The position numbers and the translations under genes are program-made. The notes under the pieces were generated by a model that ran no database searches, was not told where the DNA came from, and was given only the letters and a program-made list of their open reading frames with translations. DNA of 43,828 nucleotides from an uncultured Bacteroidales bacterium (GTDB lineage: Bacteria > Bacteroidota > Bacteroidia > Bacteroidales > FEN-979), in assembly GCA_903875045.1 (NCBI GenBank), contig CAIQUS010000200.1, positions 1 through 43,828 on the forward strand. Reading direction: 5' to 3'. This document shows positions 6,209-39,541 of the stretch, piece by piece. Numbering within the stretch: position 1 is the first letter of the stretch; the number at the start of each line of letters is the position of its first letter.

Positions 6209-8815
6209 ATGGAAATGAACCAAGACGAACAAATTTCTGAATCCCTCCACTTGCCTGTGGACAATGGAACATCACCTGAGCCTGAAATTTCGACAGGGAC
6301 CAATCGTGAAATGACCAGCAGCAGGAAAACGGTAAACGAATTAAAAGATAAAACGAACCTGCTCACAAACCTGATCCTTAATTTACAGGAGGGTATTTTG
6401 CTCGAGGATGCAAACCGGACAGTTATATTAACCAATCAGCAATTCTGCGATATGTTTGGCATCCAAGGATCTCCTGAATCACTTATAGGAGCCGATTGTT
6501 CCAACGCAGCCGAACCAAATAAGGTTTTCTTCAAAAATCCTGATCAGTTCATTGCTAAAATCAATATGCTCCTGGCACACAAAATTGCCATGTTTAATGA
6601 TCCGCTGGAATTAATTGATGGCCGGCATTTCGAACGGGATTATATCCCGACTTATCTGGATAACCAATATAGCGGTCATTTGTGGAAATACAGGGATGTT
6701 ACCGAACGTAAAAAAGCAGAACAGGTTATTCACGATCTCAACGCCAACCTTGCTTTCACAGTCAATGAAAGAACAGCCCAATTACAGGTAACCAATGAAA
6801 ACCTGCAGAAAGAAATAGAGGAGCATAAATGGGCGAGAGAGGCGCTGCAGCAAAGCATTCTGATTGCTGAACGTGATATAACAGATCGCAAAAAAGCAGA
6901 AGCGTTACTTGAACAAACGCGGCAGAATTACCAGACTTTTTTCAATACCATAGATGATTTTCTATTCGTGCTTGACGAAAAAGGGAATATCATCCACACC
7001 AACTCCACCGTGACCCAGAGGCTGGAATATTCGACCGATGAGCTTAACGGAATGTCGGTTCTGGAGGTGCATCCTGTTGAACGCAGAGAGGAGGCCGGCC
7101 GGATTGTCGGGGAGATGCTGACTGGCAAAGCTGATTTTTGCCCTGTGCCTCTCATTACAAAATCTTGTAAACCCATCCCCGTTGAAACGAGGGTAAAACA
7201 TGGTTATTGGGATGGTAAGCCAGTGATTTTCGGTGTGAGCAAGGATGTGTCGAAACTCCACTTATCGGAGGAGAAATTTTCAAAAGCTTTTCATACAAGT
7301 GCTGCAATGATGGCCATATCAACTTACCATGATGGCAGATTCATTGATGTGAACAACGCTGTTTTGAAGGTCCTGGGTTATTCCCGCGATGAAATCATTG
7401 GTCAGTCATCAACAAAACTTAAACTATATCCTGATGCGGAATTCCGAAATAAAATTATTACAAAATTGGAACAAAACATTCCGGTCAGGGATGTTGAAGC
7501 AGTATTAATAACGAAATCGGGGGCTCCGATTATTGGCCTGTTTTCTGCTTCATCTATATATATTGGAAACGATTTGTGCTTGTTAACAGTAGTGGTTGAT
7601 ATTTCTGAGATAAAAAGAACAGAAGAAGATTTAAGGAAAGCTAGGATTGAGGCTGACAAGGCAAATCAGGCAAAGAGCGAATTCCTTTCTCGTATGAGCC
7701 ATGAATTACGTACACCCATGAATTCAATACTTGGTTTCGCCCAGTTAATGAAGATGGGAGAGTTGAACCCGACCCAAAGAAATAATGTCAGCCATATCCT
7801 GAACAGTGGAAAACATTTGCTCAACCTCATCAATGAAGTGCTCGATATTGCAGGAATCGAAGCCGGCCGGCTCAAACTCTCACTGGAACCTGTCAATTTA
7901 TACAGTTTGATTTGGGAAATGATCGAAATCGTTCAGCCAATCGCCGCACAACGCAATGGGGTTATTGAGTGTGACCAACCGAAGGACAGCGGGCTTTTTG
8001 TTATGTCAGACAGCCAGCGATTGAAACAAGTCCTCCTTAATCTGTTCGATAACGCAGTTAAGTATGGTAGTGAAGGTGGTTCTGTGACTATAACAACCCG
8101 TTTGTTACAAAAGGGGGACCCTGAAATTTCCATGGTAAGGGTTTTAATTCACGATACAGGTTTTGGCATTCAGCCTGAAAACCTGGATAAACTCTTTCTG
8201 CCCTTCGAACGGATTGGTGCAGAAAATAGCGCAACACAGGGCACCGGACTCGGGTTAACGGTGGTTAAAAAGCTGATGGATGCCATGGGGGGGACAATCG
8301 GTGTGGAAAGTACCGATGGCCATGGAAACACTTTTTGGATTGAACTTCCACAAGCCGAAGAACCGAAAACGGGATCGAAACAAACCAAAGAAAATCCACC
8401 TTCTGATGTCCTGTTGAATGGCAAAACCGGAACGATTTTATACATCGAAGACAATGTTTCAAATGCCGAACTGGTTGAAGAAATCATAGGAAATCATCGT
8501 CCGGAAATCCGGATATTTACCTCTGTTTATGGAATGCAGGCAGTCAAACTGGCAAAGGATTATCTGCCTGATTTGATATTGCTTGATCTCGATTTGCCCG
8601 ATATCCCGGGGAGCAAGGTGTTGGAAAACCTTCACGAAAACGATCAGACAAAAGCAATTCCTGTCGTCATTATCAGCGCAGATGCGATGTCTGATACAAT
8701 TGAACATCATATGAATGCAGGAGCGATGGATTATCTGACCAAACCAATTGATATCAATATGTTTTTGCAGGTTGTGGATGAATGGATCGGAGAAAAGGGA
8801 AAGAGTCATAGATAA
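6209..8815 (+). CDS. Hybrid sensor histidine kinase, PAS-PAS-PAS-HisKA-HATPase-REC
   Basis: This 868-residue soluble hybrid kinase has no clear transmembrane segment. Three PAS-type domains lie at about residues 50-165, 238-350 and 355-475, joined by helical linkers. HisKA follows, with the H-box SHELRTPMN (phospho-acceptor His498). HATPase has the N box (DNAVKYG) and the G boxes DTGFGI and GTGLGL, ending near residue 715. The C-terminal receiver (about 740-862) has ILYIEDN and LLDLDLPD, with Asp793 as the likely phospho-acceptor. The last base of its stop codon is the first base of the next ATG, so translation of the following kinase is coupled. The signal is unknown. PAS domains and a cytosolic location suggest an internal cue such as redox state or small ligands. 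Confidence 0.92.
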   Translation: MEMNQDEQISESLHLPVDNGTSPEPEISTGTNREMTSSRKTVNELKDKTNLLTNLILNLQEGILLEDANRTVILTNQQFCDMFGIQGSPESLIGADCSNAAEPNKVFFKNPDQFIAKINMLLAHKIAMFNDPLELIDGRHFERDYIPTYLDNQYSGHLWKYRDVTERKKAEQVIHDLNANLAFTVNERTAQLQVTNENLQKEIEEHKWAREALQQSILIAERDITDRKKAEALLEQTRQNYQTFFNTIDDFLFVLDEKGNIIHTNSTVTQRLEYSTDELNGMSVLEVHPVERREEAGRIVGEMLTGKADFCPVPLITKSCKPIPVETRVKHGYWDGKPVIFGVSKDVSKLHLSEEKFSKAFHTSAAMMAISTYHDGRFIDVNNAVLKVLGYSRDEIIGQSSTKLKLYPDAEFRNKIITKLEQNIPVRDVEAVLITKSGAPIIGLFSASSIYIGNDLCLLTVVVDISEIKRTEEDLRKARIEADKANQAKSEFLSRMSHELRTPMNSILGFAQLMKMGELNPTQRNNVSHILNSGKHLLNLINEVLDIAGIEAGRLKLSLEPVNLYSLIWEMIEIVQPIAAQRNGVIECDQPKDSGLFVMSDSQRLKQVLLNLFDNAVKYGSEGGSVTITTRLLQKGDPEISMVRVLIHDTGFGIQPENLDKLFLPFERIGAENSATQGTGLGLTVVKKLMDAMGGTIGVESTDGHGNTFWIELPQAEEPKTGSKQTKENPPSDVLLNGKTGTILYIEDNVSNAELVEEIIGNHRPEIRIFTSVYGMQAVKLAKDYLPDLILLDLDLPDIPGSKVLENLHENDQTKAIPVVIISADAMSDTIEHHMNAGAMDYLTKPIDINMFLQVVDEWIGEKGKSHR

Positions 8816-29956: not shown

Positions 29957-30436
29957 ATGAAAAAAGCTTCCCTAATCCTGATTTCCTTATTTGCCATAAC
30001 CCTTATGATGAGTTCCTGTGGCGGTGGCAGTCAGCCTGCAGCCGAACAAACTGCTGTTAAAGCGACCGGACCTTATGCTGATCTGCCAGCCGATATCCAG
30101 GCCATGATGCCACGTGGCGAAGAACTTTACAAAACCAAGTGTACCGTTTGTCATCAGGTAACCGGATTGGGCATCGATAATGTATTCCCTCCTGTATCCA
30201 AGGCTGATTACCTTCTGGCCGATAAAGTAAGAGCAGTTGCCCAAACACTCAATGGTTCAAAAATTGAAATGATTGTGAATGGGAAAAAATACACCCAGGA
30301 GATGGTTCCTCAGGTAGATACCAAAGAAGATGCTGTTGCGGTAATCAATTATGTACTGAATAATTTTGGCAATAAAGATGGTTTCGTGACCATGGCCGAA
30401 GTTCAGGGAATTGAGATCAAACCCAGAAAAAAATAG
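29957..30436 (+). CDS. Monohaem cytochrome c lipoprotein
   Basis: The 159-residue product has a signal peptide with lipobox (LMMSSC, cysteine at residue 21), a short low-complexity linker and a class I cytochrome c domain with CTVCHQ (Cys62, His66). A conserved PPVSKADYL segment and a methionine in YTQEMVPQ (candidate sixth ligand) follow. Lipidation would tether it to the periplasmic face of a membrane. As it follows the cbb3 operon, it is a plausible electron donor to CcoP or an extra electron shuttle; this is inferred from position. It has its own candidate promoter. Confidence 0.9.
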   Translation: MKKASLILISLFAITLMMSSCGGGSQPAAEQTAVKATGPYADLPADIQAMMPRGEELYKTKCTVCHQVTGLGIDNVFPPVSKADYLLADKVRAVAQTLNGSKIEMIVNGKKYTQEMVPQVDTKEDAVAVINYVLNNFGNKDGFVTMAEVQGIEIKPRKK

Positions 30437-30874: not shown

Positions 30875-32155
30875 TCAGAAGTCAGGAATTTTATCAATCT
30901 CTTTCATCAACCTGTCTGTTTCTGACAGCGCAACAATGATTTTTTGATAATGTTGGATGTCCTCAAATTGAAGTTCACGATCTTTCCGGTCTTTCAGCCA
31001 TTTCTGAGCAGGTTGGTAGCCTCCAATGTAGAACCCCCAGGCAGCCTGTGGCACATTGGCAAAGTACTGTGTGTCGTTTATAAAAACATTGCTGTTTTCA
31101 AATCGCACTTTCTCAACCATATTGCTGCCCCCAACCGGGTATTGTGTGATATAATTTTTCACCACCGGGCTTTCCAGCAAATGGATTTGCCGTAACTCAC
31201 TACCAAGCGCCACCAGTTGCCAGAATGTTGCAGCATCCTTCGGGTAGGGGACCCTGGGAAAGTCGATCTTCAGAAACTCTTTGTATTTCTCGCGGTAGGT
31301 TGGGCTGTGCAATACCGCATAGATGTAATCGAGGAGATCGATCGGGGCAAAGGTGCCGGGGTTTCCGGATGTTGAACTGACTGAATCATCCTTTTCACTG
31401 GTGAACTTTAAGCCCGATTTTTCAGCGATCTGACTGACGATTTGCTGACTGAGGTTGGGATTCCTGCATTTTGTTGTAAGTAAATCTGTAGTTGAATTAT
31501 TGAGATAAAGTGGAAAAATATAGCCCCATTCTTGTGTTTGTAATGAAATTGCACCACTTTCAATAATAGTATTTGCAACAATGATATGTTGAAAATCAAA
31601 AGTACTTTGTTGTCGGACAGTAATAAGCCCAAAATTATCTCCTTTTGCCATATGTTTCATAGTATCAAATCGGGGGCGGCCAACAAATCCTCCAGATTTT
31701 TCTGTCATATAAATATACCTAACGTCAAACGGCCGATAAAGGATCGGGTAATGGCAACCTTCATTCCTTAGGATATCCTCCTTTGCCTTTTTTACTGTCC
31801 AACCACTTGTATCTTTCAGCCTGTATTTATTCGCAAGTTCAGATTCAGACAATTCCTGAAAATCCCGAACAACCAACTTTAAATTTTCTTTTCGAAGGTG
31901 GATAGTAAGCTCATCGTTTTTAGTTTGAATACCAGAATTACTATTTATAAACAATTGGTTTATTAAAAACCCTCCTGAATATTCTGATTGTCGGGTAAAA
32001 TCCTTCGGCACAAAGAAATGGTAAGGTTCCGGGCAATCCAGTTCCGTCCATGGGATGGAGTCAAGGCTTTCGTTGGTGAGGAAATCGTATTTCTCCCCGC
32101 GTTTGCCATAGAGGTCGAAGTGGAAGACTTGGGCGGGTTTCGGTTGATTTTTCAT
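30875..32155 (-). CDS. Type ISP/IIG restriction-modification enzyme, C-terminal (target recognition) part
   Basis: The 426-residue product starts abruptly with AQVFHFDLYGKRGEKYDFL, the sequence that normally follows the methylase NPPY region within one chain in fused type ISP/IIG enzymes. It continues with YFFVPKDF-like, YRPFDVRYIY and GRPRFDTMKHM motifs and a variable target-recognition-like region ending near NNSTTDLLTTK. The conserved end contains LLDYIYAVLHSPTYREKYKEF, FPRVPYPKD and a YIGGYQPAQKWLKDRK motif. It lacks nuclease and methylase motifs of its own. These sit on the product of 32615-34495. Its ATG overlaps the stop of the DinD-like gene (ATGA). Together the two halves total about 1050 residues, the size of intact relatives. 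Confidence 0.85.
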   Translation of the reverse strand: MKNQPKPAQVFHFDLYGKRGEKYDFLTNESLDSIPWTELDCPEPYHFFVPKDFTRQSEYSGGFLINQLFINSNSGIQTKNDELTIHLRKENLKLVVRDFQELSESELANKYRLKDTSGWTVKKAKEDILRNEGCHYPILYRPFDVRYIYMTEKSGGFVGRPRFDTMKHMAKGDNFGLITVRQQSTFDFQHIIVANTIIESGAISLQTQEWGYIFPLYLNNSTTDLLTTKCRNPNLSQQIVSQIAEKSGLKFTSEKDDSVSSTSGNPGTFAPIDLLDYIYAVLHSPTYREKYKEFLKIDFPRVPYPKDAATFWQLVALGSELRQIHLLESPVVKNYITQYPVGGSNMVEKVRFENSNVFINDTQYFANVPQAAWGFYIGGYQPAQKWLKDRKDRELQFEDIQHYQKIIVALSETDRLMKEIDKIPDF

Positions 32156-32613
32156 GGTTTGGGAAGTCTCTTTTGCTTAGACTGTTCGTTGCGAAGGAAC
32201 AATCTTTTTTCATTTTCATCAGTTAGCCGGGTGTATTCCTGCATTTTGCTGATTTCCTGAAGTCGTGTTTGGACAGCAAAATAGGTTTGTCCAATGGCGA
32301 CAACTTCTTTTGCAGGATCGGCATTTTGAACAATTAAATAACAGGCATATCTCGATAATCTTATGTTATCTATTTGTCTTTTAGCACCTTTTCCAATCCC
32401 GATCATTTCGTTGAATTCAACGAAATAATCCGAGGTTGCATAACCGCTATTCTGACAGGCTTCCTTTGCCTTATCAATTACCGATTTGAAATTCCGGTAA
32501 TCGGTATAATCCAGAATTTTAGCCAATTCTCTGGCAGACCAAAACTCATTTCCTGTTTCATCAGTCTGTTTTAGTTTTTCGAAAACAGATTGTTGGATCA
32601 GTTCTTTTGCCAT
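32152..32613 (-). CDS. dinD: DinD-like BRO-N domain protein lying inside the split restriction enzyme gene
   Basis: This 153-residue protein matches the N-terminal half of DinD (DNA-damage-inducible protein D): EFWSARELAKILDYTDYRNF, KAKEACQNSGYATSDYFVEF, RYACYLIVQNADPAKEVVAI and GQTYFAVQTR. E. coli DinD is about 274 residues and is reported to inhibit RecA filaments. Here the chain ends soon after KRLFLRNE, so the C-terminal domain is missing. The ATG begins 1 bp after the stop of the upstream RM half (TGATATG), and its own stop overlaps the ATG of the downstream half. The gene is thus translationally coupled on both sides. DinD, RhuM and Fic genes are known as guests in type I RM operons. 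Here the guest sits within what is normally one gene. Confidence 0.88.
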   Translation of the reverse strand: MAKELIQQSVFEKLKQTDETGNEFWSARELAKILDYTDYRNFKSVIDKAKEACQNSGYATSDYFVEFNEMIGIGKGAKRQIDNIRLSRYACYLIVQNADPAKEVVAIGQTYFAVQTRLQEISKMQEYTRLTDENEKRLFLRNEQSKQKRLPKP

Positions 32614-32630
32614 ATCATTTTCTTTTTTTT
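32603..32630 (-). other. A8 slippage tract and junction repeat at the RM-dinD boundary
   Basis: On the minus strand an A8 run (32630-32623) precedes AGAAAATGATATG. Counting from the ATA codon, the distance to the dinD ATG is 19 nt. One A fewer makes it 18 and gives an unbroken frame through I-K-K-E-N-D-M into dinD. GCAAAAGA at 32610-32603 recurs at 32176-32169 next to the other junction. Confidence 0.6.
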
Positions 32631-34495
32631 ATGAAAATATTGATGCTCACCCCCTGCATGATATCGAATACATTCTCATCTTTCCCTCCGTCAGGCGTAG
32701 TCTCCTTTTTTTTTGCATTCCCATGAAGGTCCAGGATATACACTTTATCAAACGTCGAAAGAAGATGCTTTCGCATTTGCCGGTGTGTAATGCCATCAAT
32801 GAAGCTGTTGTTGGAGATGTAAGCCAGAATGCCTTCTCCGTTCTTTTCAATGAAATACTGACCGTAACGGATAAACTTAATGTAATCGTCGTCGAGGTTT
32901 AGTTTCTTTTCATTCAATCCGGTTTTATATTCAGCGATGAGCGACTGGATCCACTCTCCTTTGTTGCTGCTGCTCACCGAATAAGGAGGATTTCCAAGTA
33001 CCACCATCACCGGTGTGTCGCGCTTCACATAGTTGGCTTCGTTGGCTTCGGTACTCAGCCAGTTCGCAAACAGAGTTCCGGTGTCGGCATGGTATTCTTC
33101 GAGGCTGTTGGTCAGATATATTCTGAAACGTTGTTCATATTTAGGCATATAGCCGGTTTCTCTCAACAACAGATCGAGTTTCAGGTGTGCCATGGCATAG
33201 GAGGCCATCAGGATTTCAAAGCCATTCAGCCGGGGGATCAGGTGCTTCTCCACATAATCGTTCCAGATGCCTTCCTGTCCCAGGAATTTGCTGTAAATCT
33301 GTCTGATGAGTTCAGCCAGAAATGTCGCAGTTCCGGTGGCCGGATCAAGAAATTGTACCCGGTGTACCTGCTTTTCCACCGGATTTTTAACGCCTGGTAC
33401 ATTTACTTTAATGGTTGTCATTGAATTGTCTGCCAGCCCATCCACGAGACCGAATTCAGTTTTTAAAATATAGTCAATGGCACGAACAATGAAATTTACA
33501 ACCGGGTGAGGTGTGTACCATACACCACGGGTTTTGCGCAGTTTGGGATCATATTCGGCCAGGAAAGTTTCGTAAAAATGGATGATCGGGTCCTGGGTTT
33601 GTGTGGCATTTCCAAAGTTTTTAAGTAGTGCGGAAACATCGGTGGCACGAAACAGGTCGGCGAGTCCATCAACGATCCACACAATCCTTTTGTCCAGATC
33701 ATAACCGGCAACATACTGAAACAGCTTACGTAAAAATGGGTTTGTTTTCGGGATAAGCTCAGCCGCTTCCTGACGGGAAAAAGTGTCGAGCGAAGTGTCG
33801 TGCAAACGGGCGGCAAACATGCCATAGGCGATGGTCTGTGCATAGATATCTGCAAATTCCTTTGGGTTGATATCATGAATGAGGATTTGCCTGAAAGCCG
33901 AGAGTTGATCGCGCAGCGTGTTATTTGCTTCATGAACGGATAATGGTTCTTCATCCGGGTTGATATCAGCCAGCGCATTTTCAATGACAGTTGCCAATAG
34001 TTTGGCTTTTGCAGCCATCATGGTGGCCAGCTTTTTGGGACTTTTGATGGTTTGCCCAGGATAAGCGCAAAAATCTTTGATCAGGTTTTCAAAGGATGCG
34101 AAGTTTCCTGGCAGTGAGGCCAACCGGCCATGATGGATTTCAGCAATTCTTAAGGATGTTTTAAACTCGCCGTCAATATAGAGATGAAATTCCAGGTAGT
34201 CTGTAACAATCAGGTTCTCCAACGATGCCCGGTAACGATTTAATTGTTCCTGGAGCATTTTCCCTTTCAAGTCGACCCCAATATCCTTTGCCTCGATATA
34301 CCCGATGGGAATATTCTTCCTGGTGAGGATATAATCTGGCGCCCCGCAAGCCACCCGCGAGGGTTCATTGGTTACCTGAATATCATGAGCCATGCTTTCT
34401 AACAGGCTTTGCAAATCTCCCCGATAGGTATGTTCAGTGCTTATTCCGGTTCGGTAACGGCGGTTTAGGTTTTCAAGGTATTCGGGAATGGTCAT
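32615..34495 (-). CDS. Type ISP/IIG restriction-modification enzyme, nuclease-methylase part
   Basis: The 626-residue product has an N-terminal Mrr-like PD-(D/E)xK nuclease (Pro53-Asp54, then Glu68-Ala-Lys70 in GYIEAKD). A helical coupler follows (about residues 150-320), then VWYTPHPVVNFIV and an N6-adenine methyltransferase with motif I DPATGTATFL (384-393; the third glycine is Ala) and motif IV NPPY (502-505). It stops after DENVFDIMQGVSINIFIKK, where related fused enzymes continue into target recognition. The missing part is the separate gene at 30875-32155. An A8 run covers the last codons (32623-32630). Loss of one A would join this frame to the DinD-like gene. Whether the split enzyme is active is unknown. 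Confidence 0.88.
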   Translation of the reverse strand: MTIPEYLENLNRRYRTGISTEHTYRGDLQSLLESMAHDIQVTNEPSRVACGAPDYILTRKNIPIGYIEAKDIGVDLKGKMLQEQLNRYRASLENLIVTDYLEFHLYIDGEFKTSLRIAEIHHGRLASLPGNFASFENLIKDFCAYPGQTIKSPKKLATMMAAKAKLLATVIENALADINPDEEPLSVHEANNTLRDQLSAFRQILIHDINPKEFADIYAQTIAYGMFAARLHDTSLDTFSRQEAAELIPKTNPFLRKLFQYVAGYDLDKRIVWIVDGLADLFRATDVSALLKNFGNATQTQDPIIHFYETFLAEYDPKLRKTRGVWYTPHPVVNFIVRAIDYILKTEFGLVDGLADNSMTTIKVNVPGVKNPVEKQVHRVQFLDPATGTATFLAELIRQIYSKFLGQEGIWNDYVEKHLIPRLNGFEILMASYAMAHLKLDLLLRETGYMPKYEQRFRIYLTNSLEEYHADTGTLFANWLSTEANEANYVKRDTPVMVVLGNPPYSVSSSNKGEWIQSLIAEYKTGLNEKKLNLDDDYIKFIRYGQYFIEKNGEGILAYISNNSFIDGITHRQMRKHLLSTFDKVYILDLHGNAKKKETTPDGGKDENVFDIMQGVSINIFIKKRK

Positions 34496-35136: not shown

Positions 35137-37593
35137 ATGAGAAACCTTTACAAAATTTTTGTCGTGCTGGGATTTTTTTTAACTATCCCGTCTTTTTCCC
35201 TTTTCGCCCAGGTTGGTATCAATACAGACGGTTCACCTCCGCATAGTTCAGCGATGCTCGATGTAAAAGCAGCCAACAAAGGATTTCTTCCTCCAAGGAT
35301 GACACATGCCGCAATGAATAACATCGTAAATCCTGCCGATGGCCTGATCATCTATTGCATCGATTGTGGAACAAATGCATTTGGGGCTTTGTCATTATTT
35401 ATTGCCGGTTCATGGTATAATCTAAGCATCCAGTGTTTAAATCCATTTCCCCCCCAAACAGGAATACATATCATATCAGCTGAACAGATTATATGGAATT
35501 GGAATCCTGTTTCCGGTGCTGCGGGGTATAAGTGGAATACTTCCAGTGATCTCGCATCGGCGAAAGAAATGAATACAGCCACAACCTATACAGAAACTGG
35601 CCTTTCGTGTAACACCCAATACGCCAGGTACATTTGGGCTTACAATGGTTGCGGTGGTATTTCAAATCCAACGACAATAACATCTATCACTTCAATGGTT
35701 CAGGCAGCAACGCCAGGTTCAGGAACTAATATTTCCAATACGAGTTCAATACAATGGAATTGGAATACAGTAGCTAATGCCATCGAATACAAATGGAGTA
35801 CCATCAATAATTTCTTAACCGCTACTACGCTCACAGTTCCAAGTTACACCGAAACCGGCCTGACTTGCAATACTGCCTACACCAGTTACGCTTGGGCCAT
35901 TAGTTCCTGCGGAAACTCAGAGGCTTTGACCATGACTGAGTCAACCAAGCCCGTATCTCCCGGAAACCTGGTGGAAGGAACCCATATTTCGTCATTAAAC
36001 CAAATTATATGGCACTGGAATCCTCTTCCCAATGCCACCGGATATAAATGGAGTACCATCAATAATTTCTCAACTGGCATATTTACTCCAAATACATCCC
36101 ATCTGGAATCAGGTCTGACTTGCATTACTGCCTACACCAGCTACGCTTGGGCCATTGGGGCCTGTGGAAACTCAATGCCTTTGACCATGACCAAGACAAC
36201 GGCCAAGGATCCGGAATCACCCACATCTGGGGTGAACGTTGCTACAACAACACAGATTGTATGGAACTGGAATTCTGTTCCTGGTGCAACCGGATATAAA
36301 TGGAGTACCACCAATGATTATACAACGGCCACATCCACTCTTGGGAATGCTACATTCCATACTGAAACCGGCCTGACGTGCAATACGGCCTACACAAGCT
36401 ACGCATGGGCAGTTGGGACGTGTGGGAACTCAACGCCTTTGACCATGACCAAGACAACTGCCACGAATCCTGTACCACCTTTGTCAGCAACGCACCTTGC
36501 AACTACAACTTCGATTAATTGGAACTGGGTTCCTGTTCCCAATGCAACCGGATATAAATGGAATACCATCAATGATTACGCAACGGCCACTTCTACGATT
36601 GGCAATGTTACATCCTATCTACAAACCGGCCTGACATGCAATACTACCTACACCAGCTATGCCTGGGCCATTGGTGGCTGTGGGCACTCTGTCGCGCTTA
36701 CCATGACCCAAACAACATTGCTCAATCCTGAGCCACCGACTGCCGGCACGCATGTTCCGGGCCTAACTCAGATCGTATGGAAATGGAATGCAGTAGCGGG
36801 AGCCACCGGGTACAAGTGGAGTGTGACCAACAATTTTGCCAATGCCATTGACTTGGGCTCAGGTTTGCTGATTGCTGAAACCGGAATGACCTGCAACACG
36901 CCTTATACAAGATATATATGGGCTTATGGTGCGTGTGGGAATTCAACACCTGCAACTTTGACCCAAACAACCTTCGGTTGTCCTGTTGTTTGCGGTTCTG
37001 CCTTCACCATTAACCATTCAGCCTCCGGTGGCGTAGCCCCTGTTGACAAAACAGTAACGTATGGTACTGCTACCAACATACCCGGCGAACTTACCAAGTG
37101 CTGGATCACCCGAAACCTTGGTGCAAGTCAGCAGGCAACAACTGTTGATGATGCTACCGAGGCTTCTGCTGGTTGGTATTTCCAGTTTAACCGCAAACAG
37201 GGGTATAAACATGATGGGTCAGCCAGAACCCCCAGTGCTGCATGGGATGCAACAAATGACAACTTAAGCGCAACCTGGGAGGCAGCAAAAGACCCATGTA
37301 CAATTGAACTTGGTACCGGTTGGCGCATCCCGACAAAAACTGAATGGACTAATGTAGATGCCAGTTGGACAGACTGGAACGGCCCTTTCGGCTCAGCCTT
37401 AAAACTCCATGCTGCCGGGTACCTGTACAACAGCGATGGTTCGCTGAGCAGTCGCGGCTCTTACGGCTACTACTGGAGTAGTACGCAGAACGATGCCGCC
37501 GCCGGCTGGTTCCTGGGCTTCTTCAGTGGGACCAGCGTCATGGTCAACGGCAACAAGGCGTTCGGCTTCTCCGCCCGCTGCGTAAGAGACTAG
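35137..37593 (+). CDS. Secreted FISUMP protein with repeat stalk and candidate hypervariable C-terminus
   Basis: I choose the ATG at 35137, giving 818 residues. It starts a clear signal peptide (LYKIFVVLGFFLTIPSFSLFA) followed by QVGINTDGS and AMLDV. An in-frame ATG at 35089 adds only a non-signal stretch. Residues ~100-610 hold six ~86-residue fibronectin-III-like repeats with W-N-W-N, GYKWST, ETGLTCNT and YAWA-G-CGNS. The C-terminus is a FISUMP/C-type-lectin-like domain (CWITRNLGA, GTGWRIPTKTEW, GYYWSST, FSARCVRD). The last 35 codons are adenine-poor and mostly end in C, unlike the rest of the gene, as expected for a diversity-generating retroelement variable region. It is flanked by two copies of a 207-bp palindromic element. 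Confidence 0.87.
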   Translation: MRNLYKIFVVLGFFLTIPSFSLFAQVGINTDGSPPHSSAMLDVKAANKGFLPPRMTHAAMNNIVNPADGLIIYCIDCGTNAFGALSLFIAGSWYNLSIQCLNPFPPQTGIHIISAEQIIWNWNPVSGAAGYKWNTSSDLASAKEMNTATTYTETGLSCNTQYARYIWAYNGCGGISNPTTITSITSMVQAATPGSGTNISNTSSIQWNWNTVANAIEYKWSTINNFLTATTLTVPSYTETGLTCNTAYTSYAWAISSCGNSEALTMTESTKPVSPGNLVEGTHISSLNQIIWHWNPLPNATGYKWSTINNFSTGIFTPNTSHLESGLTCITAYTSYAWAIGACGNSMPLTMTKTTAKDPESPTSGVNVATTTQIVWNWNSVPGATGYKWSTTNDYTTATSTLGNATFHTETGLTCNTAYTSYAWAVGTCGNSTPLTMTKTTATNPVPPLSATHLATTTSINWNWVPVPNATGYKWNTINDYATATSTIGNVTSYLQTGLTCNTTYTSYAWAIGGCGHSVALTMTQTTLLNPEPPTAGTHVPGLTQIVWKWNAVAGATGYKWSVTNNFANAIDLGSGLLIAETGMTCNTPYTRYIWAYGACGNSTPATLTQTTFGCPVVCGSAFTINHSASGGVAPVDKTVTYGTATNIPGELTKCWITRNLGASQQATTVDDATEASAGWYFQFNRKQGYKHDGSARTPSAAWDATNDNLSATWEAAKDPCTIELGTGWRIPTKTEWTNVDASWTDWNGPFGSALKLHAAGYLYNSDGSLSSRGSYGYYWSSTQNDAAAGWFLGFFSGTSVMVNGNKAFGFSARCVRD
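35443..36980 (+). repeat. 258-bp in-frame repeats of the FISUMP protein stalk
   Basis: Six units with a period near 258 bp (86 residues). For example, the TACGC(T/A)TGGGC segment recurs near 35886, 36142, 36400 and 36658. Units are more diverged than those of the adhesin at the start of the window. Confidence 0.8.
37486..37590 (+). other. Candidate variable region (VR) of a diversity-generating retroelement
   Basis: Of these 35 codons 24 end in C, and only 10 adenines occur in the 87 bases 37495-37581. C-ending codons that could each come from AAC occupy alternating positions (residues 787-789, 792, 794, 796, 799, 801, 803, 805, 809, 811), with conserved residues between them. Two short hairpins follow the stop (37611-37625 and 37660-37672). 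The call is an inference; no template or reverse transcriptase lies in this window. Confidence 0.45.
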
Positions 37594-37610
37594 GAATTTA
37601 TTTGTTTCAT

Positions 37611-37625
37611 TTGACACTTTGTCAA
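37611..37625 (+). other. Short hairpin 17 bp after the FISUMP stop codon
   Basis: TTGACA, a 3-nt loop, then TGTCAA: a 6-bp perfect stem. Retroelement targets typically have a small hairpin just downstream of the variable region, so its position is suggestive. It could equally be part of the transcript end. Confidence 0.4.
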
Positions 37626-37659: not shown

Positions 37660-37684
37660 ACCGCGTAGCGGTCGAATTTTTTTT
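37660..37684 (+). terminator. Terminator after the FISUMP gene
   Basis: ACCGC, a GTA loop and GCGGT form a short GC-rich hairpin. A T8 run starts 4 bp later (37677-37684). Confidence 0.65.
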
Positions 37685-38179: not shown

Positions 38180-39541
38180 ATGAATAAGCAATTTAACCGC
38201 CGTGATTTTATTAAGTCCATCGCAGTTGCCGGAGTCGGGCTTGCGGTGAGCGACGACCTGATGGCTTCGATTCAGCCCGACAGACCCGACAGCCACTTTT
38301 CGCCTGCACCTGTGGGCAGTCCGATGCAAAAAGTTCGAATCGGCTATGTGGGGGTTGGCCTCCAGGGCACATCGCATGTCGAAAACCTCCTGAAAGTTGA
38401 AGGCGCTGAAATTGTTGCTGTGTGCGACATCGTTGAGAGCAAGGTTCAGCGGGCACAGGATATGGTTGAAAAGGCCGGTTTTAAGAGACCGGAAGGATAT
38501 TCGAAAAATGAATTCGACTGGCAGCGGTTATGTGCCCGGAACGACATTGACCTTGTATACACCGCAACACCATGGCAATGGCATGTTCCCATCTGCCTGG
38601 CCGCCATGAACAATGGAAAGCATGTGGCAACGGAGGTTCCGGCTGCCATCACGCTCGATGAGTGCTGGGAACTGGTTGAAACTTCAGAAAAGACCGGAAA
38701 GTATTGTATCATGATGGAGAATTGCAACTACGACAAAGTAGAAATGATGATCCTCAACATGGTGAAAAAAGGTTTGTTTGGCGAATTAGTGCACGCTGAA
38801 TGCGGTTACCTGCATGATTTGCGGGCCGTAAAGCATGATATGGAAGGGGAGGGGGTATGGCGCCGCGATTTCTCCATGCGCAACAACGGGGATCTCTATC
38901 CCACGCATGGTTTGGGCCCCGTGATGCAGTGTATGGACATCAACCGTGGAAACTATTTCGATTCAATGGTATCGTTTGGTTCCAAAACCCGTGGACTGCA
39001 CGATTATGCTATTGACAAATTCGGGCCTGACAGTCCGCAAGCCCGTGAAAAATATACCCTGAGTGATGTGGTTACGACGTTAATCAGTACCATGAACGGG
39101 GAAACCATTGTGGTTACGCATGATACAAGCCTGCCGCGACCTTACAGCCGGAATATCCTGGTTCAGGGAACAAAAGGAATTGTGCGGAAATATCCGGAAC
39201 CGAAAATTTATATAGAAGGTGTCAGCAAAACCAACGACCAATGGGAGCCGATCAATGAATACCTGAAAAAATACCAGCATCCGATCTGGGAAGAGTTGGA
39301 AACAGCCAGCAAAGGAGCTGGTCACGGCGGAATGGACTACATTGAAGATTACCGGCTGGTAAACGCCCTGCTCAAAGGCACAGAACCCGATATGGATGTG
39401 TATGATGCAGTGGTGATGAGCGCGGTGCGGGTACTTAGTGAACGTTCTATCGCAAAAGGTGGTAAAACACTCAAATTCCCTGATTTCACCCGGGGGAGGT
39501 GGAAGAAACCCCGCATGCTGCCAGTCATGCAGATTGGATAA
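38180..39541 (+). CDS. Gfo/Idh/MocA family protein, glycoside hydrolase family 109-like
   Basis: The ATG at 38180 gives 453 residues and a twin-arginine signal (NRRDFIKSIAVAGVGLAV). An upstream in-frame ATG would hide it. A Rossmann NAD-binding start follows (RIGYVGVGLQGTSHVENLL, then EIVAVCDI). The signature YTATPWQWHVPICLAAMNNG and the EVPAA and HAECGYLHDLR segments match GH109 enzymes, which cleave alpha-N-acetylgalactosamine by an NAD-dependent redox mechanism. Substrate identity cannot be read from the sequence; relatives include other NAD-dependent sugar-active proteins. Export by Tat would carry the folded, cofactor-loaded protein to the periplasm. A palindromic element begins 5 bp after the stop. 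Confidence 0.85.
   Translation: MNKQFNRRDFIKSIAVAGVGLAVSDDLMASIQPDRPDSHFSPAPVGSPMQKVRIGYVGVGLQGTSHVENLLKVEGAEIVAVCDIVESKVQRAQDMVEKAGFKRPEGYSKNEFDWQRLCARNDIDLVYTATPWQWHVPICLAAMNNGKHVATEVPAAITLDECWELVETSEKTGKYCIMMENCNYDKVEMMILNMVKKGLFGELVHAECGYLHDLRAVKHDMEGEGVWRRDFSMRNNGDLYPTHGLGPVMQCMDINRGNYFDSMVSFGSKTRGLHDYAIDKFGPDSPQAREKYTLSDVVTTLISTMNGETIVVTHDTSLPRPYSRNILVQGTKGIVRKYPEPKIYIEGVSKTNDQWEPINEYLKKYQHPIWEELETASKGAGHGGMDYIEDYRLVNALLKGTEPDMDVYDAVVMSAVRVLSERSIAKGGKTLKFPDFTRGRWKKPRMLPVMQIG

Follow-up and report, generated by a model that had tools for sequence, protein, structure and literature searches.

A probable remote variable repeat of a diversity-generating retroelement in an uncultured Bacteroidales bacterium, and the sequence module that follows it

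Introduction

Remote targets of diversity-generating retroelements (DGRs), as well as targets of the FISUMP type, are already known. In Treponema denticola, one reverse transcriptase (RT) and one template repeat (TR) are described as serving several scattered target genes of the C-type-lectin fold (PMC4891356), remote targets are also reported from cyanobacteria (PMC7517822), and the introduction of a study on DGRs of the human microbiome states that target genes lie far apart in some genomes (PMC4159848). A large metagenome survey mentions that its own approach would not detect remote targets (PMC8144416). Here we describe a putative target of this kind, the 3'-end of a FISUMP-type gene in a 43,828-nucleotide stretch of an uncultured Bacteroidales bacterium (contig CAIQUS010000200.1 of assembly GCA_903875045.1, positions 1 to 43,828 of the forward strand). 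The whole stretch is referred to as the window, its contig as C200 and the host genome, a draft of 253 contigs, as G000. What drew attention to the candidate hypermutation target in the raw sequence was its codon pattern, and the stop codon is followed by an unusually clear candidate for an "address label".

The described systems resemble the present one in part. The report on T. denticola also mentions "suspicious" targets, which carry excessive mutations, as well as strains in which targets persist after loss or absence of the RT; its targets differ from ours in being of the FGE-sulfatase type with accessory genes of the HRDC type, and its main text does not use the word hairpin (PMC4891356). 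The trans-acting DGRs of Thiohalocapsa PB-PSB1 are similar in that repeats like miniature inverted-repeat transposable elements (MITEs) lie near the DGR loci, and differ in that diversification was observed in natural populations, whereas present-day diversification of the variable repeat (VR) of the window is predicted, and in that the targets are putative antigen sensors instead of a FISUMP protein (PMC10907252). The Fib_succ_major targets of the human microbiome, of which nine proteins are tabulated, share the C-terminal domain; they come from metagenome assemblies, and the main text that presents them does not contain the word "remote" (PMC4159848). In phage BPP-1 the VR has a GC-rich 3'-end and is followed by a hairpin/cruciform important for efficient homing, and inverted repeats downstream of the VR are reported as nearly always present (PMC3240598). 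A reconstitution published in 2026 describes the hairpin as important and not strictly required (PMC12875486), and trinucleotide GRA loops are reported for nanoarchaeal DGRs (PMC4372165).

Results

The variable repeat and its template

A preliminary description, made from the letters of the window alone, had proposed a remote variable region at 37486-37590 because of its NNC codons, its depletion in adenine and at least twelve codons derivable from AAC. These observations held: 24 of the 35 codons in that stretch are NNC, as against a maximum of 16 (mean 9.0) in any 35-codon stretch upstream of the repeat, and adenine makes up 17.1% of it, compared with 27.9% of the gene before 37486. When the whole genome was searched at the DNA level with 37380-37593, 25 places were found, including the query itself, and two of them were on C29, a contig of 6828 bp; the genome has three RVT_1 matches, and one of these is on C29 as well. 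A near copy, the TR of locus L012 on that contig (Table 1), could be aligned with the window VR without gaps over 183 bp; the two differ at 25 of 57 template adenines and at 2 of 126 other bases (Fisher p=5.4e-13). Thus 25 of 27 mismatches fall at template adenines, and the copy adjoins an RT of the retroelement type and an Avd gene. The copy and the RT whose absence was to refute the preliminary proposal are both present. When only codon positions 1 and 2 were considered, the differences numbered 23 of 54 at adenines and 0 of 68 elsewhere. The VR of the cognate target on C29 differs from the TR at 20 of 57 adenines and at none of the 126 other bases.

The TR contains 17 AAC codons and one AAT. 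All 17 AAC codons correspond to positions of the window VR, and 12 lie within 37486-37590, where the window has altered codons at 9 of the 12; the variable region is therefore present as proposed, and its extent, 183 bp, is larger than the stretch first delimited. Over the four clean VRs (a clean copy having at most 3 non-A differences), namely those of the window, C29 and the same-genus genomes G015 and G001, each compared with the C29 TR, the AAC codons were changed in 55 of 68 cells and their third C was kept in 68 of 68. Plain codon usage, or an island of composition in the lectin domain, could by itself give the NNC richness. This explanation is at odds with the upstream maximum mentioned above and is refuted by the finding of a template with adenine-specific differences, so that we give it practically no weight.

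Of the 20 adenines altered in the C29 VR, 6 are still A in the window VR; the other 14 are altered in both, 7 of them to the same base. Since those six sites are unaltered, the window VR is not derivable from the C29 VR alone. Gene conversion from VR to VR among paralogous lectin genes, without reverse transcription, would have a large recombination substrate in the 80 FISUMP-family matches of the genome (some of them partial pieces); the six sites nevertheless exclude the C29 VR as its sole source, and conversion would not by itself restrict the differences to adenines. We consider it very improbable.

The flanks of the two targets were compared as well. The window VR equals the TR at 124 of 126 non-A positions, whereas the window and C29 targets are identical at 126 of 210 columns in the 200 bp just upstream of the VR, 143 of 203 in the preceding 200 bp and 104 of 227 between 100 and 300 bp downstream; the first 95 bp downstream are still similar (74 of 95). 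The closely shared unit is therefore the VR plus a short 3' module, and the comparison of VR and flank identity is indicative of homing rather than simple gene duplication.

The retroelement locus on contig C29

The genes on C29 are arranged in the order radC-like open reading frame (ORF; judged by eye), lectin-type target gene, 167-aa ORF, TR, Avd gene and RT gene, and the reading frames of Avd and RT are open. The closest solved relative of the RT is 8ub7 (E=8e-37), which we take to be the RT of the BPP-1 DGR, and a group II intron RT is far behind (5e-9). Avd matched PF22296 with 55.2 bits (cut-off 40), PHROG 3206, "Avd protein of DGR", at 5e-19, and NF033474 with 63.8 bits, below the cut-off of 80. 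Related RTs are next to or near an annotated Avd in two of the three annotated phages fetched (Magia and Bacteroides phage F2) and beside a "four helix bundle protein" in the third. With its target gene, TR, Avd gene and DGR-type RT, the C29 element is, by sequence comparison, a DGR. The 167-aa ORF gave no match in Pfam, NCBIfam or PHROG, and relatives of it (tblastn, E up to 1e-3) were found in 15 of 54 RT loci; it is possibly an undescribed DGR accessory gene.

The statement that neither an RT nor a template lies in the window, and that the target would thus be acted on at a distance, was borne out: the three RVT_1 matches are on C93, C244 and C29, the template search matched C200 only at the repeat itself, and the VR is 6237 bp from the nearer end of C200, with RT and TR on a separate draft contig. 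The RTs of C93 and C244 were rejected as sources of diversification. The former is retron-like (PADLOC RT-Toprim 2e-95) and not DGR-like; the latter is a retron-like sequence, also not DGR-like, beside cas1 and a set of CRISPR effector genes (L032; the effector set judged by eye).

As the genome is a draft and C29 is just 6828 bp long, the C29 DGR might have come from another organism through an artefact of assembly or binning. The same locus, however, is found in same-genus genomes, with the TR region 99% (G001), 99% (G015) and 96% (G004) identical over 211 bp, and an exact 22-nt stretch of the hairpin described below occurs in the genome solely after the C29 and window VRs, making such an origin hardly credible. 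The RT proteins of these genomes are 93% (G001, partial), 75% (G015) and 89% (G004, partial) identical to that of C29. In the comparison with G015 (L056), L012:4381-4800 showed 97-100% identity per 60-bp window and avd plus RT 42-90%; this contrast between the TR region and avd/RT was slight in G001 and G004.

Table 1. Positions of the features on the window (C200) and on locus L012 (contig C29)
Feature	Contig	Position	Strand	Remarks
Target gene, 818 aa	C200	35137..37593	+	ORF open from 35089
Variable repeat (VR), 183 bp	C200	37409..37591	+	near copy of the C29 template repeat L012:4610-4792
VR 3'-end, candidate initiation of mutagenic homing (IMH) site	C200	37564..37591	+	IMH assigned from position
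AT-rich linker	C200	37594..37659	+	TTTRWC units 8 nt apart: TTTGAC 37610-37615, TTTGTC 37618-37623
GNA-triloop hairpin ACCGC-GTA-GCGGT (37660-37672) then CGAATTTTTTTT	C200	37660..37684	+	
MITE-like repeat copy 1, 211 bp, ~20-bp terminal inverted repeats	C200	34825..35035		89% identical to copy 2
MITE-like repeat copy 2	C200	37697..37907		same orientation as copy 1; begins 106 bp 3' of VR
Insertion, ~7.7 kb, ends approximate	C200	30438..38139		between cytochrome c gene and oxidoreductase gene
Cognate VR in lectin-type target gene	C29	L012:3596-3778		
167-aa ORF between cognate VR and TR	C29	L012:3946-4449		
Template repeat (TR)	C29	L012:4610-4792		
Avd gene	C29	L012:4849-5199		PF22296, PHROG 3206, NF033474
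RT gene	C29	L012:5165-6355		RVT_1 60 bits

Status of the window repeat

The target gene begins with a signal-peptide-like stretch ending in FAQ (judged by eye), followed by fibronectin-III-like repeats (fibronectin chains, E=1.7e-4) and a C-terminal domain of the FISUMP/Lcl_C type, which scored 28 bits with TIGR02145 (cut-off 41.65) and 21.1 bits with PF07603 (cut-off 34.9). Taken together, our results indicate that its 3'-end is very probably a remote VR which the C29 DGR diversifies now or diversified in the past, and homing at this VR is likely to be still going on. Several observations weigh against this conclusion. One is the T>C difference in codon 37498-37500, inside the convertible stretch and not at an adenine; another is the second non-adenine difference, a synonymous third-base change, C>A, in codon 37582-37584, which lies within the candidate IMH stretch and is the one base at the VR 3'-end that differs from the TR (none does in the cognate C29 VR). 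Moreover, the assembly is a draft with 2.29% contamination, in which RT and VR fall on different contigs, and the top NCBIfam model for the C29 RT is a group II intron RT/maturase (105.5 bits, below the cut-off of 300), a DGR RT model being absent among the NCBIfam matches. Finally, the fold model of the C-terminal domain is poor (mean predicted local distance difference test score, pLDDT, 57.5; an earlier model of 218 aa from 14 sequences had 46), and the top solved match in a search with the fold model, the C-terminal domain of Legionella Lcl, was not significant (E=0.21).

A different account agrees with ours on all but activity: the VR would have been diversified by the C29 DGR formerly, and the targeting would have ended. 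Apart from the TR itself, the eleven best matches of the TR included ten that could be scored without gaps, two of them clean and eight with 9-29 non-A differences (the eleventh, on C160, needed gaps and was left out of the count). Targets seem to decay, because the genome holds this series of more diverged VR-like copies, and two non-A differences have accumulated in the window VR. On the other hand, the differences are just two, one of them at the 3'-end, the part that in other DGRs retains target-specific sequence; the hairpin module, too, is intact, and the frames of the C29 RT and Avd are open. An abandoned target is consequently the less favoured state, unlikely to our judgement, and the reading of a VR that is still being diversified is followed below.

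The module downstream of the stop codon

Small hairpins after the stop had been noticed from the start, and two can be read from the sequence, the one listed in Table 1 and a weaker TTGAC...GTCAA at 37611-37625. The former folds as DNA with -4.7 kcal/mol (z -2.29; 4 of 200 shuffles did equally well). Compared with the phage type, for which stems of 7-10 bp, 4-nt GRNA loops and distances of 4-34 bp from the VR are given (PMC3240598), it is smaller (5-bp stem, 3-nt GTA loop) and farther from the VR (68 bp), with a T-tract linker in between.

The exact 22-mer found at two genome sites only, 3' of the C29 VR and 3' of the window VR, is ACCGCGTAGCGGTCGAATTTTT; with two mismatches it occurs at C250:1562, 3' of another lectin-type gene end. 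Its 17-mer core occurs six times, with at most one mismatch, in 19 further genomes, and five of the six sites are within about 70 nt after lectin-type gene ends (judged by eye), the sixth, G004:C412, being too close to the contig start to judge. The gene end on C250 (1330-1583, L033) is lectin-type as judged by eye, has NNC-rich codons and is followed by the hairpin ACCGC-ATA-GCGGTCGG. No template for it was found in the genome, where its longest other match was 71% over about 180 bp and the remaining ones were at most 77 bp long, including pieces of 31-38 bp at 95-97%.

Among the copies fetched from 15 genomes, a subset of the VR-like matches, a CCGC-N3-4-GCGG hairpin followed 4 of 4 clean VRs and 2 of 51 diverged copies, one of the 51 being a TR (G054) and another having 34 nt of sequence downstream. 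The first count overstates independence, because the clean VRs include three cognate targets that are orthologues. The diverged copies that retain an intact hairpin, G015:C237 and G009:C189, may be served by other templates.

While the GNA-triloop hairpin by itself is of a known type, the whole module common to the window and cognate targets, i.e. the TTTRWC linker, the hairpin and TCGAATTTTT, is possibly new, and none of the papers listed in our literature searches was seen to name an 8-nt-periodic linker.

Occurrence of the module in other retroelement loci

The VR 3'-ends of 60 RT loci, some of them overlapping and 54 obtained with one RT search, were collected with a mechanical finder of TR/VR pairs. 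A GC-rich hairpin with a loop of 3-4 nt was present within 160 nt of 26 of 37 VR 3'-ends compared with 33 of 613 control ORF ends, and the pattern CCGC(C)N3-4(G)GCGG at 19 of 37 compared with 6 of 613, of which one is the window VR and two are a single L140 hairpin seen on both strands. Three of the 37 ends are rows from the single locus L135, four are the sources of the motif (window, C29, G001 and C250, for which no template was found) and one is L090, which is equal to G015. Minus those sources and L090, five rows, a hairpin is present at 21 of 32 ends and the CCGC pattern at 14 of 32, including L122, whose loop has 5 nt. The VR calls of L099, L107, L118 and one of the two in L116 apparently end before the stop codon.

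The 37 linkers contain TTTRWC 45 times compared with 7.4 expected from dinucleotide shuffles (the highest of 200 shuffles had 16), 17 of them have at least two copies as against 6 of 616 control ORF ends, and 8-nt T-tract spacings between VR and hairpin number 36 against 4.65. Because TTTRWC was chosen after the first set had been seen, its sole fresh test is a separate set, in which 21 loci gave 17 with a TR/VR pair and 14 were used; L144 was dropped because its TR/VR layout is that of L135, L147 because its result equals that of L145, and L168 because it is on the contig of L149. A hairpin was found in seven of these 14 loci and at least two TTTRWC in two (L149 and L041). In view of the latter count, the periodic linker probably characterises near relatives. 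Two extra RT scans of viral contigs yielded two new loci, both on contigs already in the set. DGRs of Bacteroidota, of further bacteria and of phages share the hairpin part of the module, and the periodic linker is commonest near the relatives of this RT. In a Rikenellaceae DGR locus (L106:1692-4509 and 7699-8085) several VR-like lectin segments follow one another and, as judged by eye, do not make up a single clean gene end.

Proposed mechanism

According to the scheme that we favour, the C29 element would transcribe the 183-nt template, and its RT, together with Avd, would copy this RNA with misincorporation opposite adenines. The mutated cDNA would then replace the matching stretch of the window gene, altering up to 18 asparagine positions of the lectin-type domain, presumably in a secreted protein, and leaving the scaffold unchanged. 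The 3' module would mark the window gene for the machinery acting in trans and, by analogy with the hairpin/cruciform of BPP-1, this is most likely its role. That the module serves as the address of the target is a good hypothesis on the grounds of the shared sequence and the BPP-1 precedent, and the module would presumably be needed. If this were true, a short DNA signature would make remote targets searchable, and the way in which a DGR picks its targets in trans would become directly testable.

Genomic setting of the target gene

The target gene sits between two MITE-like repeat copies. At least nine copies of this repeat are in the genome at E 1e-10 or better, with adjacent pieces merged, a number which is a lower bound because 40 of 71 candidates were scored; three of them, on C200, C178 and C160, are 3-106 bp 3' of a VR. 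The end of this repeat was also seen after a VR in G015:C232. We tentatively propose, as a scheme somewhat less probable than an even chance, that the VR and its 3' module of about 95 bp are a portable label turning any carrier gene into a DGR target in trans. MITE-like repeats would spread labelled targets, copies with a decayed label would become fixed lectin paralogues, and cruciform extrusion would be helped by the periodic T-tracts, through bending or opening of the DNA.

No syntenic orthologue of the target gene was seen in relatives among the matches listed. Of 14 genomes searched, 12 have the neighbouring oxidoreductase gene, and none of the 12 has it on a contig with a listed VR-like match. 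In the window this gene starts at 38180 and the cytochrome c gene ends at 30436. The two are adjacent in five of the six relatives fetched; no cytochrome gene was found within the stretch fetched from the sixth, G004. This adjacency places the target within an insertion of about 7.7 kb. Besides the target gene, the insertion carries a Bro-N ORF and a type ISP restriction-modification gene, which is present at 30875-34495 as two ORFs with the Bro-N ORF between them.
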